The notes under the pieces were generated by a model, which did no database searches, was not told the origin of the DNA, and saw only the letters and a list, made by a program, of their open reading frames with translations. This document shows, piece by piece, positions 39,582-63,352 of a DNA stretch of 64,000 bases; position 1 is the stretch's first letter; every line of letters starts with the position of its first letter. Source of the DNA: Lachnospiraceae bacterium GAM79 (GTDB lineage Bacteria; Bacillota; Clostridia; Lachnospirales; Lachnospiraceae); the NCBI GenBank assembly GCA_003584705.1, contig AP018536.1, positions 248,001 through 312,000 on the forward strand, written 5' to 3'. The translations under genes were made by a program, and so were the position numbers.

Positions 39582-41044
39582 CAGACTGTAGACAAAATGG
39601 TTTCAGGGGCTATACCCTGAAACCATTTTGCTGTAATATCTCTAATTATGAAAACCATCTTTCTATAAAATAATGTATTAAGGGAGTTGTATTTCGCTCC
39701 CCATTTTTTCCGCCATTTCCATATCGCCATTTTCTTTAAATTCATGCACGCAAACAGGAGGTTTAGCTCCATTTTTATCTTGGCTATCCCTCGGTATTGC
39801 GTATAACGCATTCCATGCTTTTCTTTTGCATCGGCAAAGACTCGTTCAATTGTCTGCTTTCTCTGCTGATAGATTTCTTTTATTCCTTTGGTGTGACGGA
39901 TCTCTTCTACCTGCTCCATATAGTTTTCCCAGACATGCCTTGTAATTACTTTTACATGATCTTTGCTTCCGGTACACTGACTTTGATATGGGCAGTCTTT
40001 ACATTTCTTGCCGTCACTTTTGTATTCACGGTATCCCTCTCGATTTGTTGTTCGATAAGTCAATACCTGATGATTTGGGCATAAGTAGCAATCATAATAT
40101 TCATCATAAACATACTCATATTTCTTAAAAAACCCTTTTTTGGTCATTGGACGTTTGTAAGGCATGACCGGTATTTTCTTATCCTCGATTAACTGTCTGG
40201 CAATGGCTGGTATCTTATATCCGGCATCCAGTACGTAATAGGTTGCACCTTCAATTATCTTCATCCGTTTATAGAGTTCCCAGAAAGAGGTACTGTCATG
40301 AACATTTCCAGCAGTGACTGTGAAGTCCAGAATATAATTATTTTTGTCACAACAGGTATTGGCAGAATACGCAAACACCTGCTTATGCTCTCCTTTATGA
40401 AACCAACCGCTGTCTGGGTCGGTCGTACTGACTTTTCTTTTTCCTTCTTCTGGAAGTACTTCTTTTTCCTTGTGTGGCTTTTTACCGTGAGCTTCCCGAT
40501 CTTTTTTGATTTCTTCCTGCAACTCTTTTTCGTAATGTCGTGCCTCCTTCAAAAAGACCTGCTCTTCGTATTTATGGGAATTAGCATTTGCCTTGATGTG
40601 GGTTCCATCAATAAATACTTGTTCCATATCTAAAAATCCGCAGGCGTCGACTTCCGCAAGTACGCGGACAAATATTTTCTCGAATAATCCAGTTCCTTCA
40701 AAACGTCTGGAATAGTTCTTTCCGTAAGTAGAAAAGTGAGGAATCGATTCGTACATTCCATAACCCAGAAACCAGCGATAAGCAATATTTACTTCAATTT
40801 CCCGGATTGCCTGACGCATGGAAGGGATGCCAAAAATGTACTGCAGCATTGCGATTTTTACCAGGACAACGGGATCAATACTTTCACGGCCAAAGTCACT
40901 ATATAACTCTTTTACTTCATCATAGATGAAACTAAAATCCATTGCATCCTCTATCTTACGAACAAGATGATTTTTAGGAACTAGTTCCTCTAAACTGACG
41001 ATTTCCATTTGAGAACGCTCGGAATAATCCTTTTTCCCCATCAT
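39581..41044 (-). CDS. IS1182-type DDE transposase
   Basis: 487 aa. N-terminal DUF772-like domain (LVRKIEDAMDFSFIYDEV, FGIPSMRQAIREIEVN) and DDE residues in FIDGTHIKANANSHK, YYVLDAGYKIP and the C-terminal ERVFADAKEKHGMRYTQYRG; a Cys-rich CKDCPYQSQC segment lies between. The TGA stop is completed only by the T of the flanking target DNA, so the element relies on its target for the stop codon. AT-rich leader behind 41044 contains the promoter region. Confidence 0.93.
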   Translation of the reverse strand: MMGKKDYSERSQMEIVSLEELVPKNHLVRKIEDAMDFSFIYDEVKELYSDFGRESIDPVVLVKIAMLQYIFGIPSMRQAIREIEVNIAYRWFLGYGMYESIPHFSTYGKNYSRRFEGTGLFEKIFVRVLAEVDACGFLDMEQVFIDGTHIKANANSHKYEEQVFLKEARHYEKELQEEIKKDREAHGKKPHKEKEVLPEEGKRKVSTTDPDSGWFHKGEHKQVFAYSANTCCDKNNYILDFTVTAGNVHDSTSFWELYKRMKIIEGATYYVLDAGYKIPAIARQLIEDKKIPVMPYKRPMTKKGFFKKYEYVYDEYYDCYLCPNHQVLTYRTTNREGYREYKSDGKKCKDCPYQSQCTGSKDHVKVITRHVWENYMEQVEEIRHTKGIKEIYQQRKQTIERVFADAKEKHGMRYTQYRGIAKIKMELNLLFACMNLKKMAIWKWRKKWGAKYNSLNTLFYRKMVFIIRDITAKWFQGIAPETILSTV

Positions 41045-57205: not shown

Positions 57206-58909
57206 TTGAAACAGAAGAAATGTGTGTTTTTCATAGTCTCAATCTTACTGTCTTTGATACTCTCCATCCAGGTTTATGCAGTAGGGGACGGAAATCTTGA
57301 TGGGGGAGGCGGAAGTATGGGACAGGGGACCAGTCAGAATTCCTGGTCACCGGGAAATGAAGGGGTGCGGGTTACTGTCATTCGGGCAGAGAGCCATGAT
57401 CCGGTAACAAGACCGATTGACTTAACAAACAAGCATCCGAATATTGCCTACTCCTTTGGGAAAGTCAGTAAAATGTCTTATACCAGAGGAAGTGCTTTGA
57501 TGATTGATACCAATCCATATGAGTATGTAAATCCGGCACAGTCTCTACCCAGAATCATCAGCTCGAAAAGTCTGGGGCAGGCAAATATTGAGCAGATTAA
57601 AAGTTATTTTACAGATGAACAGGTGGTGCGCAGCATTGCAGGACTGACTGGAATGGATTTTGACACACTGGTGGGAGGGGAGTATAGGCTCTTATTGGAG
57701 CCGATCAGTTTTCTTAAATTTCAAGGAACCCTGATTGCAGTTACAGCAACAGAGGCAGCGCTCTATGATGAGATGTTAAGTGGTGGGCTTCGTGCTGTCC
57801 TTCCAACAGTGGCATTTCAGAATCTACCACTTTCTATGTTTTTGGAAACACCGGATCTGGGATATCCGGCTTGGGGAGGTCCTACATCGGGAATCCGTTC
57901 CAACAGTGAAATAAAAAGTTCCCTGGGACTTGGCATTGTACGGTTTCGGGATGTGCCACCAGAGGAACCGGAGATCACGACCTATGATTATGAGTATAGG
58001 ACTAACACGGAAGTGATTACGGCAGTAGAGGTACGCGGAGGACAGAGTGATCCGGATCATCCGGTATCCGTAACATTTTCCGTAGGAGGAAGAAGCTACG
58101 AGGTGGGAGAGGTATATTATCCGTCCGGTGACAGTCAGCTGGCTTGGATCCGCTGGACAACACCGGAGCAGCCTCAGACTATGACGATGACCGTCCGTGT
58201 GCGGGGCGGAGGAGGAATAAGTAAAGGAACTCTTCACATCAAGGTTGTGGATCTGGATGAAAATCCACCGCCAGATCCCAATGCGGATGACCGGAATGAC
58301 GGGTTTACAAGACCTTCGGTTCCTTCCAATGCAGAAGTAACCTTTGCATCCTGGGGTGTGTGGAGGCCATGGTGGAGGGAATACTGGGTATGGCACAGCG
58401 GGGATGAGGATGATGACGGGTACTGGTGTGACCATGGCTGGTGGGAGTTTGACCTGGACCGATACTCCGCAAGCCTGACTGCAGATATGAGAATTACAAC
58501 CGATGAAAAGTCCCCTACCGCTACGGGAAGGACGATGAAATCCGGTTATGGATTCCAGGAAAAGGTAACAACTCATGTCAGCACCAATCAGAGTTCTGCA
58601 GTGACATCTGCGCAGAATGCGGTGACTTATTTTCCGGAATTTCAGTATGAGAGGTTTTGGAGGCTTTTGGAACGGATGAATGGCGGCTATGATATGACCC
58701 ATGAGTTTAAGAAAAATGGTTACAGTACCTATGAGAGGAGAACGCATTTTACACCAATTTGGTATCCGGATGGAAGCTATACGCCGTATACATGGTTGTT
58801 GGATTGCTGGACACCGGCTGGGATGCTTTCCATGAATCTGACCGATTCCATTACCATTGACGGAAACCTATGGAGTGACTGGCACATCGCACCGCAGAAC
58901 CCAGAGTAG
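57206..58909 (+). CDS. Large secreted protein, candidate pilus tip or adhesion protein
   Basis: 567 aa from a TTG with AAAGGAGGAT upstream. The signal peptide (KKCVFFIVSILLSLILS) ends in QVYA. A Gly-rich start is followed by about 200 mixed residues, a beta domain (VEVRGGQSDPDHPVSVTFSV), a Pro/Asp linker and a Trp-rich C-terminal region (WRPWWREYWVW, WSDWHIAP). No sortase motif or membrane anchor, so it is released or held by the machine. Unknown family. Placed between the tad module and the T4SS genes, suiting a cell-contact role. Confidence 0.7.
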   Translation: MKQKKCVFFIVSILLSLILSIQVYAVGDGNLDGGGGSMGQGTSQNSWSPGNEGVRVTVIRAESHDPVTRPIDLTNKHPNIAYSFGKVSKMSYTRGSALMIDTNPYEYVNPAQSLPRIISSKSLGQANIEQIKSYFTDEQVVRSIAGLTGMDFDTLVGGEYRLLLEPISFLKFQGTLIAVTATEAALYDEMLSGGLRAVLPTVAFQNLPLSMFLETPDLGYPAWGGPTSGIRSNSEIKSSLGLGIVRFRDVPPEEPEITTYDYEYRTNTEVITAVEVRGGQSDPDHPVSVTFSVGGRSYEVGEVYYPSGDSQLAWIRWTTPEQPQTMTMTVRVRGGGGISKGTLHIKVVDLDENPPPDPNADDRNDGFTRPSVPSNAEVTFASWGVWRPWWREYWVWHSGDEDDDGYWCDHGWWEFDLDRYSASLTADMRITTDEKSPTATGRTMKSGYGFQEKVTTHVSTNQSSAVTSAQNAVTYFPEFQYERFWRLLERMNGGYDMTHEFKKNGYSTYERRTHFTPIWYPDGSYTPYTWLLDCWTPAGMLSMNLTDSITIDGNLWSDWHIAPQNPE

Positions 58910-58955
58910 GGGGAGTTTTTGCAGGAAATTACACAGGAATAGGAGGAACATTTTA

Positions 58956-59291
58956 ATGAAAACAAAGAAAATCATAACATCTGTTTGTACAGCCGCAGTT
59001 TTCGCAAGCCTAATCTGTATGCCGGCATATGCGGCTTCCGGGGACGTGGCCGGGGCGATTGAGGGAACCTGGCAGACGGCATCCCAACAGATCAAAACAG
59101 TTGTCGATCATGTTGTATTTCCAGCCATAGATCTGATCCTTGCCGTGTTCTTTTTTGGAAAACTGGGAACGGCATACTTTGATTATCGGAAACATGGGCA
59201 GTTTGAATGGGCAGCACCGGCAATTCTGTTTGCCTGTCTGGTATTTACACTGACTGCACCGCTTTATATCTGGCAGATTCTTGGAATTTAG
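58956..59291 (+). CDS. DUF3852 family protein
   Basis: 111 aa with AGGAGG before ATG 58956. Cleavable signal (ending MPAYA), then a short linker and two membrane helices (FPAIDLILAVFFFGKL; AAPAILFACLVFTLTAPLYI). This is the VirB2-like topology of DUF3852 proteins found ahead of the VirB6-like gene on Firmicute conjugative elements. It may be the conjugation-channel pilin analogue. Confidence 0.8.
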   Translation: MKTKKIITSVCTAAVFASLICMPAYAASGDVAGAIEGTWQTASQQIKTVVDHVVFPAIDLILAVFFFGKLGTAYFDYRKHGQFEWAAPAILFACLVFTLTAPLYIWQILGI

Positions 59292-59301
59292 GAGGTATAT
59301 C

Positions 59302-60321
59302 ATGGGATGTTGGGGAATTACTGCGTTTGAGTCCGATGCTGGACTAGATGCCATCAGTCTCATACGGAAACATCTTCCGGAACAAGGGGATGTAGAACTC
59401 CGGCAGATGCTTGCCTGGCTGAAGGCAGATTCTTGGAATGCCCCTCCGGAAGTGTCAGAAGGGGTGTCTCATACAAGCCCAATGGCAGTGGCAGAACTAA
59501 TTGTAAAATTCCAGGAGAAGGATTTTTCTGCACTGGATGGAATCAAGGGGGATAAGAAGTTTTCCTCCCTGTCTTCTTTTACAGCATCGAAAGAATCCCT
59601 TCAGTGGGTAAGGGAATATCTGTCGGAAACTCTTTTTTACAGCCGTAAATGTGCAAAAGAGCAGGAGAAGTCGGGAGTTTTGTGGGGCGGCTGGTTTCAG
59701 GAACGGGATTGGAAGCACTGGCAGGCGCATATGGAAAAACTGATTGGAAGGATGGATGAACTGCTTACAAGAGAGGGAGAAACAGTTGCATTATGGACAG
59801 GAAGCATTTGCCAGAAGGCGGAACCGGGAAAAATAGCAGGAAAGAAAGAAGGGGAAGAACGTGAGAACCCACATAGGTCGGAGGAGGAAAGCATGACATT
59901 TTTTGAAAGGGAACTAAAAAAAATGTTTGGAACGGGAGCGAGCTTTTCAGAACCAAGGTTTGTCGGGAATTGTTGTTATGGAAGGCTGACGGATCAGATC
60001 CGTGTCAAAATCAACTTTCAGACAGGCATGGTTGCGGATCATTATGACCGATTGAAAGTGACCCTTTTGAATCGGAATGAAGGAACGATCGACAGCATGG
60101 TTGTGAAATTTGGAGATGTGTGGGGTCTGAAAAAAACGACTAATCCCAACTTCCGCGACGGGGTAAATCCCCATATCTGGTCCTATGGAAAGGAGATCGG
60201 CTGGTATGTATATCAGCCCGGAAAAGAGGATTATAAAGTACTCAGTGAAGCGGTAAAGACCTATCTGCAAGTGTTTCAGGAACCGGAGGAAGCTATGCAA
60301 ATGGGACAGAAGATGTGTTAA
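59302..60321 (+). CDS. Fusion: DUF4259-like N-terminus with conserved mobile-element domain
   Basis: 339 aa from ATG 59302 with AGGAGG. MGCWGITAFESDAGLDAISL recalls DUF4259 (MGAWG-x-x-x-F-x-ND). From about residue 198, TFFERELKKMFGTGASFS...FVGNCCYGRL starts a separate domain that I recall as a stand-alone protein on related elements. An internal ATG (59893) has GGAGGAAAGC directly ahead, so that domain may also be made alone (142 aa). Function unknown. Confidence 0.65.
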   Translation: MGCWGITAFESDAGLDAISLIRKHLPEQGDVELRQMLAWLKADSWNAPPEVSEGVSHTSPMAVAELIVKFQEKDFSALDGIKGDKKFSSLSSFTASKESLQWVREYLSETLFYSRKCAKEQEKSGVLWGGWFQERDWKHWQAHMEKLIGRMDELLTREGETVALWTGSICQKAEPGKIAGKKEGEERENPHRSEEESMTFFERELKKMFGTGASFSEPRFVGNCCYGRLTDQIRVKINFQTGMVADHYDRLKVTLLNRNEGTIDSMVVKFGDVWGLKKTTNPNFRDGVNPHIWSYGKEIGWYVYQPGKEDYKVLSEAVKTYLQVFQEPEEAMQMGQKMC

Positions 60322-60338
60322 GGGGAGGTGGTTAAAAC

Positions 60339-61241
60339 TTGTTTATCTGGGATTTTGTTGCAGACACGGTTCTGGGACAGATCATTGACTGGCTGTATGG
60401 TCAGATTGTTGGATTTCTGGGGGATTTTTTCATGCAGATGGGAAGCATGGGGGCTGAACTGTTCGAAATGAGCTGGGTACAGTCTGTTGTGCTTCTTTTT
60501 TATTATCTGGCATGGGCACTTTATGTGACGGGAATCGTAGTGGCAGCCTTTGAATGCGGAATTGAATATCAGAATGGCAGGGGAAGCATACGCGATACTG
60601 CCCTGAATGTAATCAAAGGATTCCTGGCAGCCAGCCTGTTTACGACTGTTCCAGTGGAACTTTATAAGCTCAGTATTTCACTTCAGGGGAGTTTTACAGC
60701 CGGTATTACAGGATTGGGAGAAGATATTGGGACAGTTGCGGCAGGGATTGTGCAGTCTCTTCAGGATGCAGCTACCTGGCAAGAAGCTGCCACATCTGGA
60801 GTTTTTGGTGGAATCGGAAGTATCAGCAGCCCGATTTTTATGATCTTTCTCTTGATCCTCATGGGTTATGCGGTAATCAAAGTGTTCTTTGCGAACTTAA
60901 AACGGGGTGGGATCCTGCTGATCCAGATTGCAGTAGGGAGCCTTTATTTATTCAGTGTGCCAAGGGGATATATTGATGGATTTGTTGGCTGGTGCAAGCA
61001 GGTAATCGGTCTGTGCCTGACCGCTTTTTTACAGGCGACGGTCCTGATCGCAGGTCTGATGGTCGTTAAGGATCAGGCACTGCTTGGTCTGGGACTTATG
61101 TTATCGGCAGGTGAGATTCCGCGGATTGCGGGGCAGTTTGGGTTGGAAACGGGAACCAAAGCAAATGTGATGGGAGCAGTCTATGCAGCGCAGGGAGCTA
61201 TGAACCTAACAAGGACGGTTGTGCAAGTGGTTTCTAAGTAG
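60339..61241 (+). CDS. VirB6/TrbL-like conjugation membrane protein
   Basis: 300 aa from a TTG with GGGGAGGTGG upstream. Starts with an amphipathic region (VADTVLGQIIDWLYGQIVGF) and has six to seven hydrophobic helices, the layout of VirB6/TrbL channel proteins of Gram-positive type IV secretion systems. Lies between the DUF3852 gene and the VirB3-like gene at the edge, the usual order. No catalytic motif expected. Confidence 0.8.
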   Translation: MFIWDFVADTVLGQIIDWLYGQIVGFLGDFFMQMGSMGAELFEMSWVQSVVLLFYYLAWALYVTGIVVAAFECGIEYQNGRGSIRDTALNVIKGFLAASLFTTVPVELYKLSISLQGSFTAGITGLGEDIGTVAAGIVQSLQDAATWQEAATSGVFGGIGSISSPIFMIFLLILMGYAVIKVFFANLKRGGILLIQIAVGSLYLFSVPRGYIDGFVGWCKQVIGLCLTAFLQATVLIAGLMVVKDQALLGLGLMLSAGEIPRIAGQFGLETGTKANVMGAVYAAQGAMNLTRTVVQVVSK

Positions 61242-61256
61242 AGAGGACGGTGAAGG

Positions 61257-61631
61257 ATGGAACGCAACAAACTGGTGTATATTGCATCTCCGTATTCTGG
61301 AGATGTTGAGCGGAATGTAGCATTTGCAAAGGCAGCCTGTCGTTATGCCATGAACCAGGGGGTTACGCCAATTGCCTCCCATCTGCTATATCCGCAGATG
61401 CTGGATGATGGAGTCCCAGAAGAGAGGAAGCTGGGAACAGATATGGGGCTTCGGATTTTGAAGGTGTGTGAGGAAGTCTGGGTGTGTGGAAGTGAACTGT
61501 CTTCAGGAATGGAACAGGAAATCCGTACAGCAAGGCAGCTTCAGATTCCGCTTAGACGGGTCAGCGAACAGGAGATTGGATGGGAACTATGTGAAGCACC
61601 GATACAAAAGGGAATGGAGATGGGCGGATGA
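61257..61631 (+). CDS. DUF4406/nucleoside 2-deoxyribosyltransferase-like protein
   Basis: 124 aa. KLVYIASPYSGDVERNVAFA is the substrate-loop signature of the DUF4406/deoxyribosyltransferase-like Rossmann fold, with ITPIASHLLYPQ-type and SSGMEQEIRTA segments also in place. Such small proteins are frequent on phages and conjugative elements next to methylases and may modify or hydrolyse nucleotides. ATGA overlap with the cytosine methylase. Confidence 0.75.
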   Translation: MERNKLVYIASPYSGDVERNVAFAKAACRYAMNQGVTPIASHLLYPQMLDDGVPEERKLGTDMGLRILKVCEEVWVCGSELSSGMEQEIRTARQLQIPLRRVSEQEIGWELCEAPIQKGMEMGG

Positions 61632-63352
61632 TGACACTGGGGAGCCTGTTTGACGGGATTGGAGGATTCCCTTTGGCGGCAGTTCACTGTGGAGGTGTGC
61701 CGGTATGGGCCAGTGAGATAGAACCGTTTCCCATGAGGGTAACCAAACTCCGGTTTCCAGATATGCTCCATGTAGGGGACATTACAAAACTGGATGGAGC
61801 AAAATTGCCGCCTGTGGATGTAATCTGCGGAGGCAGCCCCTGTCAGGATTTGTCAGTAGCCGGATTACGGAAAGGATTGGCAGGGGAGCGCTCCGGTCTG
61901 TTTATGGACCAGGTACGCATAGTAAAGGAGATGAGAGCAGAGGATGAAAGACGAGGGGTATCAGATGACTTTATTCGACCTCGATACCTCGTTTGGGAAA
62001 ATGTCCCTGGAGCATTCAGCTCCGCAAATGGAGAAGATTTCCGGGCGGTCATCGAGGAGATTGTCCATATCAAGGACAGTACCTGTCATGTGCCTCGACC
62101 TGACACCGGGCGCTGGGAATCTGCTGGGGCTGCCATTTTGGGAGATCAATTCAGCCTGGCTTGGAGAGTCTTGGATGCTCAATACTGGGGAGTCGCCCAG
62201 CGCCGCCGTAGAATCTTCCTTGTCGCAGATTTTGGAGGACTCACCGCACCAAAGATATTATTTGAGCAAGAACGCCTGCTTGGGGATCCTGCGGAGGGCC
62301 AAGGTCAGGGGAAAGGAGTTACCACCACAGCTGGAAATAGCTCTGCGGATTCAGGCGGGAGTAGAGTAGCAGAGGAAAAAGAGGTGGATATTTTTGCGTT
62401 TCATATTAATCAGAGGGAAGAAACGATCAACCTCAACGGAATATCCGGAGCTTTGATGGCAACGACCAATATGCAGATGCAGACCTTTGTGGCAGAGGGG
62501 ATGAGGAAGTTTGAAAGTGCAGAAAAAGAAGAAGAGTGTCTGAGCCTCAATGACCAAGGAGGAGAGCGTATGGATGTTTCGGTCGATGTAACAGCAACCC
62601 TGCGGGCAGGGATGAGTGGTCATCCGCCTCTGGTGATGGGCATCCAGCAGGGGGGTGCTGGGACAGAGAAAACTCCGGATCCAGCTCTTACAGAGGAGGC
62701 AGAAACCGGCGGGAACAATCAGCAGATTCTGTTTGAGAATCACGGGATTGATGCCAGATATACAGGTCCGCATGAGGTGGCCCCTACCATGTCAGACCGG
62801 TATGGAACAGGAGGAAACAATGTCCCACTGGTCTCAGATATGCCGGAGAGTTATTGTATTGCCGGAAATATCATTGATCGAGAAGTACAAAATGGAGGAA
62901 ATGGTCTGGGATGCCAGCCGGATATATCCTATACTCTTACGAGTGCAGACCGTCATGCAGTGTTCAGCCGCCAGAGAAGTGATGAATTTCTGCAAAATCG
63001 GGTAACAGCGACTCAGAGCGCCAGACAGCATAAGGATGCTACGGATCTGGTGTGTGAGCCGTATCAGAATACGGTAGGAACCATTGGATATACAGATCAT
63101 AAGGGGATTAATAATCAATATGTCAGCGAAGATAAATGTATTGTTGAGAACCGGAGACTGATCCGGAGGCTGACGCCTTTGGAGTGTGAACGGTTACAGG
63201 GTTTTCCGGATCACTGGACAGATATCCCTGGTGCCTCGGATAGTGCCCGTTACAAAGCTCTTGGGAATAGCGTAGCGATACCGTGTGTGGATTTTGTTCT
63301 CCGTGGTATCGCTTATTTTTTGCGGAAGATGAAGGAGGAGAAAGAACCATAA
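61628..63352 (+). CDS. DNA cytosine-5 methyltransferase
   Basis: 574 aa. Motif I LFDGIGGFPLAA, motif IV GGSPCQDLSVAG (catalytic Cys about 73), motif VI WENVPGA, motif VIII AQRRRRIFLVAD, and motifs IX/X RRLTPLECERLQGFPDHW and YKALGNSVAIP. Residues 230-500, between VIII and IX, form a long variable target-recognition region. Transfers methyl from SAM to cytosine, likely shielding the element from restriction. Translationally coupled to the previous gene. A second frame inside codons 112-247 appears to encode another protein. Confidence 0.93.
   Translation: MMTLGSLFDGIGGFPLAAVHCGGVPVWASEIEPFPMRVTKLRFPDMLHVGDITKLDGAKLPPVDVICGGSPCQDLSVAGLRKGLAGERSGLFMDQVRIVKEMRAEDERRGVSDDFIRPRYLVWENVPGAFSSANGEDFRAVIEEIVHIKDSTCHVPRPDTGRWESAGAAILGDQFSLAWRVLDAQYWGVAQRRRRIFLVADFGGLTAPKILFEQERLLGDPAEGQGQGKGVTTTAGNSSADSGGSRVAEEKEVDIFAFHINQREETINLNGISGALMATTNMQMQTFVAEGMRKFESAEKEEECLSLNDQGGERMDVSVDVTATLRAGMSGHPPLVMGIQQGGAGTEKTPDPALTEEAETGGNNQQILFENHGIDARYTGPHEVAPTMSDRYGTGGNNVPLVSDMPESYCIAGNIIDREVQNGGNGLGCQPDISYTLTSADRHAVFSRQRSDEFLQNRVTATQSARQHKDATDLVCEPYQNTVGTIGYTDHKGINNQYVSEDKCIVENRRLIRRLTPLECERLQGFPDHWTDIPGASDSARYKALGNSVAIPCVDFVLRGIAYFLRKMKEEKEP
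61965..62369 (+). CDS. Overprinted ORF inside the cytosine methylase (+1 frame)
   Basis: 134 aa wholly within the methylase gene. ATG 61965 has GAGGGG 6 nt upstream; ATG 61944 is an upstream alternative. The product opens MTLFDLDTSFGKMSLEHSA and ends with SLSQILEDSP...YYLSKNACLGILRRA. I recall near-identical motifs (SLSQILE, YYLS-x-KAC-x-GILRRA-x-RGKELP) in stand-alone phage and element proteins of unknown function. The SFGKMSLEHSA stretch is the shifted reading of WENVPGAFSS. Both frames look protein-like, which is unusual for a shadow ORF. Function unknown. Confidence 0.55.
   Translation: MTLFDLDTSFGKMSLEHSAPQMEKISGRSSRRLSISRTVPVMCLDLTPGAGNLLGLPFWEINSAWLGESWMLNTGESPSAAVESSLSQILEDSPHQRYYLSKNACLGILRRAKVRGKELPPQLEIALRIQAGVE

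Follow-up and report, generated by a model that had tools for sequence, protein, structure and literature searches.

A conserved gene nested in the +1 frame of C5-cytosine DNA methyltransferases probably carries a displaced segment of the enzyme

In this study, which was based on a 64,000-nucleotide stretch of the genome of Lachnospiraceae bacterium GAM79 (hereafter, the window) and on comparison with its homologues, we describe a gene, designated ov, that lies in the +1 frame inside the gene of a C5-cytosine DNA methyltransferase (MTase). Judged from sequence comparison, ov is a real and conserved protein-coding nested gene, and its C-terminal block is probably not foreign sequence but the enzyme's own segment following motif VIII, encoded in a different frame. 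On this evidence, the MTase chain would lack a segment that its single-chain kin carry at that place, and the nested open reading frame (ORF) would hold it. We therefore consider a two-polypeptide MTase, in which the displaced segment is supplied in trans by the nested gene, to be the probable explanation. The features are listed in Table 1.

Table 1. Positions in the window of the MTase gene, the nested gene ov and their parts.
Feature	Coordinates	Strand	Basis or remark
C5-cytosine DNA methyltransferase (MTase), 574 aa	61628..63352	+	motifs I-VIII, TRD region and IX-X in one frame
Shine-Dalgarno-like AAGGAG, 13 nt before ATG 61944, within MTase codons KEM	61925..61930	+	Shine-Dalgarno-like site frequent across loci
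Nested +1 gene ov, 141 aa, likeliest extent	61944..62369	+	ATG in 37/47 rows, +1 register, synonymous constraint
Shorter version of ov from the first-pass annotation, 134 aa	61965..62369	+	GAGGGG 6 nt upstream; ATG in only 10/47 rows
MTase motif VI (ENV), beneath the 5' half of ov	61997..62005	+	E124, N125 and V126 invariant in 7 sequences
MTase motif VIII (QRRRR)	62198..62212	+	strong synonymous constraint starts directly 3'
MTase-frame stretch out of frame relative to the displaced segment (IFLVADFGGLTAPKILFEQ...)	62213..62375	+	no match to the post-VIII segment HMM
C-terminal block of ov	62217..62345	+	alignment of its first 30 residues (62217-62306) to the segment that follows motif VIII in L308-type C5-MTases
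MTase motifs IX (RRLTPLECERLQGFPD) to X (GNSVAIP), MTase frame	63164..63283	+	sequence reading

The host gene was assigned to its family by Pfam DNA_methylase (PF00145; E 3.7e-47) and TIGR00675 dcm (E 1.6e-44). These models, together with the motifs read in the sequence, place motifs I, IV, VI, VIII, IX and X in one chain; positions 252-320 of PF00145 match window 63032-63304. The region upstream (window 58857-61631), which holds genes for DUF3852 (with a weak likeness to TrbC), TrbL_5 and DUF7768, is the conjugation module of an integrative element, and the MTase may shield the transferred DNA from restriction. The same genome has two further nested copies, at 40255-40653 (L248) and 3062468-3062821 (L249) of contig G000:C1, which show 50% and 46% identity in the matched stretch, respectively, and which both lie in +1 inside an MTase; a TrbL-like ORF, judged by eye, adjoins the first of them.

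The first-pass annotation had described a 134-codon +1 frame at 61965-62369 over MTase motifs VI and VIII with GAGGGG (61953-61958) as its ribosome site, and both are present. Its open stretch runs from 61935 to 62369, and an ATG does stand at 61965, but the conserved start is rather that at 61944, which is probably the true one. In the 47 rows of the start region, which are those with a TLFDLD-type start and of which four (the window, L247, L250 and L142) are the window gene or near-identical copies, the codon at 61944 is mostly ATG, whereas that at 61965 is most commonly CTC (22 rows); because of this, the longer extent was adopted. Two of the product motifs named earlier, MTLFDLDTS and SLSQILEDS, were recovered as described, while the third, given as KACxGILRRA-like, actually reads KNACLGILRRA. 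The spacing between the AAGGAG and the ATG at 61944 is long. Across the loci, an ATG was found within 30 codons after the upstream stop in 224 of 228, and the first ov ATG had a Shine-Dalgarno-like site (a match of at least 4 nt, 4-13 nt upstream) in 201 of these 224 compared with 18% of random positions, a count in which the loci found with the ov profile (L007-L086) are included beside the MTase-selected ones. Thus, ov has a conserved start and ribosome site of its own, with the Shine-Dalgarno-like site lying within conserved MTase codons, for which reason this signal may partly be constraint on the MTase.

Homologues were collected with the N-terminal 111 aa of the MTase as query (window 61628-61960, of which 17 nt are shared with ov), and the best 80 loci from genomes and the best 80 from viral contigs formed the MTase-selected set of 160. 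Retention of the +1 frame among methylase homologues, which had been named earlier as a check, was observed in 149 of these 160 loci, with an ov match downstream in +1 in 76 of the 80 genome loci and 73 of the 80 viral loci; the 149 include L160, in which ov hardly overlaps, and four rearranged Chakrabartyella piscis loci, in which the block is fused to the MTase. Among the 11 exceptions, the contig ends inside ov in five (L193, L196, L204, L216 and L217), L158 is a truncated gene, L195 has a shifted frame, ov stands apart in L162 and L168, and insertions interrupt the MTase at the ENV codons in L107 and L128. Judged by eye, these insertions resemble a group II intron that carries a reverse transcriptase. 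In all 18 of the annotated loci that were first fetched from the phage and plasmid matches, ov was in +1 of the annotated MTase start.

Such proteins, described in the first-pass annotation as occurring on phages and conjugative elements of Firmicutes, are not confined to this phylum: the +1 register was verified in P1, in Vibrio phage CP-T1 and in phages of Caulobacter, Sinorhizobium, Mycobacterium and Pseudanabaena. With ov as tblastn query, at least 132 phage records gave a match, P1 among them along with phages that infect Firmicutes, Vibrio, Sinorhizobium and Mycobacterium. The P1 ov likewise matched at least 132 phage records, some of them from phages of Caulobacter, Roseobacter and Pseudanabaena, and at least 531 plasmid records. 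A standalone ov without an MTase was looked for among the classified loci, drawn from the matches listed, and none was found.

Phage P1 dmt holds ov in +1 with a 157-aa product, which probably starts at base 66728 of record AF234172, 7 nt after a GGAG; only dmt is annotated there in the record viewed. P1 Dmt shares the nested +1 ORF with the window MTase and differs from it by an additional Dam domain. According to PMC12707154, P1 dmt is needed for packaging in Dam-minus hosts, which concerns its Dam activity. A DNA match to the P1-type ov was present in 493 of 5426 complete Escherichia coli genomes, of which 488 cover at least 80% of ov, and among the 40 matches listed the sole annotated feature is the MTase. 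On P1-like plasmids, 18 of these 40 listed matches break off at position 406 of the P1 ov query, which is 474 bases long, and the ov tail and the following target recognition domain (TRD) may therefore be exchanged together.

When synonymous codons were shuffled within the MTase gene, the ov span remained open in 0 of 300 shuffles (window), 5 of 300 (P1) and 2654 of 40500 (135 genes). The openness of the frame alone is moderate evidence; shared register, synonymous constraint and motif conservation decide that ov is coding. Strong excess synonymous constraint over the ov segment, the other check that had been named, was found. Synonymous identity at conserved amino acids (197 sequences, 8424 pairs) was 0.84, 0.81 and 0.90 in codons 196-240 compared with 0.31-0.50 in codons 1-105; it jumps at codon 196, just past motif VIII, while codons 116-195 are mildly and unevenly constrained (0.28-0.87). 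Pooled over 135 full-length nested genes, it was 0.378 upstream, 0.605 in codons 113-247, 0.662 in codons 148-247, and 0.385 and 0.376 downstream of ov, the sets for this measure and for the codon-position tests including ov-profile finds (L007-L086) besides the MTase-selected loci. A similar comparison of P1 with four diverged relatives gave 0.61-0.66 over ov and 0.26-0.47 elsewhere, the three closer relatives being uninformative.

Additionally, in codons 148-247 the first position changed more than the third in all eight of the pairs nearest to the window, with the reverse both upstream and downstream. In L094, for example, change at the three positions was 0.15/0.09/0.46 upstream, 0.28/0.12/0.15 in codons 148-247 and 0.15/0.08/0.55 downstream. 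Such a turnover is expected under +1-frame selection because the third positions of the MTase are the second positions of ov. In far pairs pooled, the turn was small, with first- and third-position change of 0.417 and 0.396 in codons 148-247, and 0.381 and 0.429 in codons 113-247. Both frames, MTase and ov, are under purifying selection, and the proposal that the two frames co-evolve agrees with the synonymous constraint over ov and with the invariant MTase motifs. An origin of the conservation in the MTase protein alone was rejected on the codon-position pattern, which shows +1-frame selection.

The likeness of the ov block to an MTase segment came from L308, a single-chain MTase encoded in the genome from which the window is taken, in which the sequence after motif VIII reads TCLGDILEKKVDPKYTISERLYEGHKRRKEEHKRKG. 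Against a profile of nine L308-like MTases, which were chosen as L308 kin after the motif in L308 had first been noticed by eye, the ov block gave an hhalign E of 4.3e-5 with a probability of 69%, and none of 200 column shuffles reached its score (34.1, maximum of the shuffles 18.5). Against L308 alone, E was 0.0025 (probability 12%), and against 23 mixed single-chain MTases it was 0.016 (probability 3%) at the same place. The homology spans 30 columns. The pattern of the segment was seen in six of 29 single-chain MTases; because of this, and because the set was chosen as L308 kin, the word "canonical" fits the L308 type and not every C5-MTase. An HMM of the post-VIII segment exceeded 5 bits in 134 of 178 ov ORFs of nested loci and in 19 of 39 ov ORFs of split loci, and in none of the 178 and 39 corresponding MTase frames; in the nested-type frames, window included, an L308-type segment in the MTase's own frame was thus not found. 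As single sequences, the ov proteins of the window (2.6 bits) and of P1 (-0.1 bits) score weakly, and the homology claim therefore rests on profiles.

AlphaFold2 predicts residues 101-140 of ov with a pLDDT of 82-94 and places helices at 109-122 and 128-138. The N-terminus is modelled with a pLDDT of about 45-56 up to residue 100 (56 for 91-100); the prediction is not confident for residues 1-92, and this part stays unordered in the model with the C-half attached (beta mean pLDDT 41.7). Sequence searches of the PDB, one with the full-length protein and one with its block, gave no match, and Foldseek with the low-confidence model gave a best E of 3.5. A gene overprinted de novo with an unrelated function was dropped as an explanation, since LxDILExxVDxKYxxS-like text follows motif VIII both in loci of the family phrog_16143 and in L308. 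As for the origin of ov, its C-terminal block resembles old MTase sequence; the N-terminal part of about 90 aa may be overprinted, yet it is kept in copies that hardly overlap. Of the 121 ov proteins, 61 are hit by the family phrog_16143 ("DNA methyltransferase", 139 positions), with a best E of 9.7e-10; the window protein matches it only at E 0.019. When 291 genomes were searched, the six highest-scoring hits of this family proved to be +1 ORFs within a second, divergent MTase type. The family bears this label only, with no description as a nested gene or a displaced segment, and it appears to be the nested partner rather than the enzyme.

The first-pass annotation had offered the roles of partner, inhibitor and antirestriction factor for the second product, and that of a partner is the best supported. 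An independent regulator or anti-restriction protein, which would bind the MTase or DNA without restoring a missing segment, seems unlikely to us. A small separate product with a basic helical block, the mobile-element setting with a TrbL gene alongside and the shortness of the homology would all suit such a protein, but the block resembles the MTase's own segment, and ov accompanies the MTase in the classifiable loci and shares a chain with motifs IX-X in 43 loci. Moreover, no Pfam, NCBIfam or PADLOC family matches more than two of the 121 ov proteins; the PADLOC matches came from six models with one protein each (best E 0.0093), none of which we count as a match to a known anti-restriction or defence protein, and nothing that points to an inhibitory or antirestriction role was found in these three collections.

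A profile search of 290 loci and the window, together with a reading of the frames, revealed several architectures. In 182 loci ov is nested and motifs IX-X are in the MTase frame, which without four fused C. piscis chains leaves 178 loci, window included. In 39 split loci (38 without the frame-shifted L195), the chain with motifs I-VIII (alpha) stops and ov continues in frame into the TRD and IX-X, overlapping alpha by a median of 371 nt; 36 of the best 80 MTase-selected genome loci are of this type. In four separated loci (L160, L162, and L168 and L013 of one contig), a protein of ov and the C-half overlaps alpha by only 28-52 nt; together with 16 loci in which the C-half is in a third ORF, these make up the 20 loci of HMM class "C". 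No C-half was in reach in 28 loci, and 22 were unassignable, 17 of them owing to reading of the plus frames only (16 lie on the minus strand) or to a short contig. A tree of 109 columns requires six architecture changes among 116 labelled rows (shuffled mean 31.9). It is poorly resolved: the columns are few, and stars mark 16 of the 122 inner branches.

The separated copies keep the N-terminal ov motifs (L168 18.1, L160 15.7 and L162 7.6 bits; none of 1000 shuffles in each case), and the +1 frame over their alpha has 6-9 stops. The ov N-terminus therefore looks like protein sequence in its own right, as its motifs are kept where motifs VI-VIII no longer dictate the DNA. In the four copies of C. 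piscis (L091, L093, L115 and L117), a short insertion has brought motif VIII, the ov block and the C-half into one frame, and ov as a whole is no longer present. Across the loci, natural variants occur in which the block is joined to the C-half, stands apart from the MTase or is joined to both halves. Broken MTases were also seen in Mycobacterium Omegavirus (L295-L297 and L006), where they consist of short CDSs; in one of these records, with an HNH gene inside, the intron boundaries could not be set.

These architectures also bear on a programmed +1 frameshift after motif VIII into the ov frame, which would give one chain with motifs I-VIII, the post-VIII segment and, where they are in that frame, the TRD and IX-X. 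It would explain why strong synonymous constraint begins at codon 196, right past motif VIII, and in the 39 split loci it would yield a chain resembling that of C. piscis. However, a hybrid with all the motifs would not arise in every architecture, since in nested loci the shifted chain would end soon after the segment, without the TRD and IX-X: the ov stop lies a median of seven codons past LPxxLxxAL in the 126 loci with this pattern. Furthermore, the ov start and its Shine-Dalgarno-like site are conserved, the hardly overlapping loci cannot use a shift and yet keep ov, and the alpha frame of split loci ends 219-271 codons after its start region, beyond the place where the shift would be needed. 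A frameshift is, in our view, rather improbable.

Very improbable is a frozen relic, in which two old compensating frameshifts left the stretch out of frame and ov is made but dispensable in nested loci: the C-half did switch between the ov and MTase frames in the six changes of the poorly resolved tree, but over the block ov is under purifying selection in the Firmicutes loci and in the P1 group. That no second protein exists, and that the conservation has its source in the MTase protein, in a DNA site or in RNA structure, can hardly be entertained, for although openness alone is reached in part of the codon shuffles, the eight near pairs carry the mark of +1-frame selection, the hardly overlapping copies keep the protein sequence and ov continues as the MTase C-half in 39 loci.

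In the two-polypeptide MTase that we favour, ov would be translated by internal initiation on the MTase mRNA, from an ATG preceded by a Shine-Dalgarno-like site. The product would carry near its C-terminus the short helical segment that in L308-type chains lies between motif VIII and the TRD, and the MTase chain would be made without this segment because that stretch is translated in a different frame. Most likely, the small protein would dock onto the MTase between its catalytic and DNA-recognition lobes and may thereby restore the segment in trans, giving an enzyme of two polypeptides whose activity or specificity would depend on it. We infer that ov is translated in vivo, that it binds the MTase and that it is required for activity or specificity.

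Split C5-MTases are already known, and the nearest systems are M.AquI and M.EcoHK31I. M.AquI is a two-polypeptide C5-MTase, as is proposed here; unlike in M.AquI, beta here starts far upstream, in another frame over alpha, with an extra N-terminal region, and most of the classified loci, including the window, keep IX-X in the MTase chain with only ov apart. The beta chain of M.EcoHK31I is reportedly encoded in another frame inside alpha. According to PMC3404938, M.EcoHK31I consists of two polypeptides, of which the small one carries a conserved element, motif IX. The displaced element here is instead the post-VIII segment, and the likeness is one of description; a conserved MTase element stands on a second ORF in the window type, and in the 39 split loci the ov ORF encodes the C-half. 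For fragments of M.SssI, about 4% of the full activity is reported. In the open-licence PMC literature searched, no description was found of a long +1 gene that holds the post-VIII segment and is nested in MTases of phages and mobile elements from several phyla.

The wider claim, which we put forward only tentatively, is that these are widespread obligate two-chain MTases in which the segment that joins the lobes has been displaced into a nested out-of-frame gene and acts in trans, and that how much each frame is translated relative to the other could determine when or where the element methylates DNA. A conserved gene lies inside P1 dmt and its relatives, and in the record rows viewed it has no separate annotation. 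Should ov prove to be a required subunit, cloned MTases deprived of it, through recoding for instance, would lack activity or be misread. The natural series from nested through split and separated to re-fused forms is a study case for an enzyme segment that moves between frames and polypeptides, and ov is an inexpensive system in which to study long gene overlaps in bacteria.
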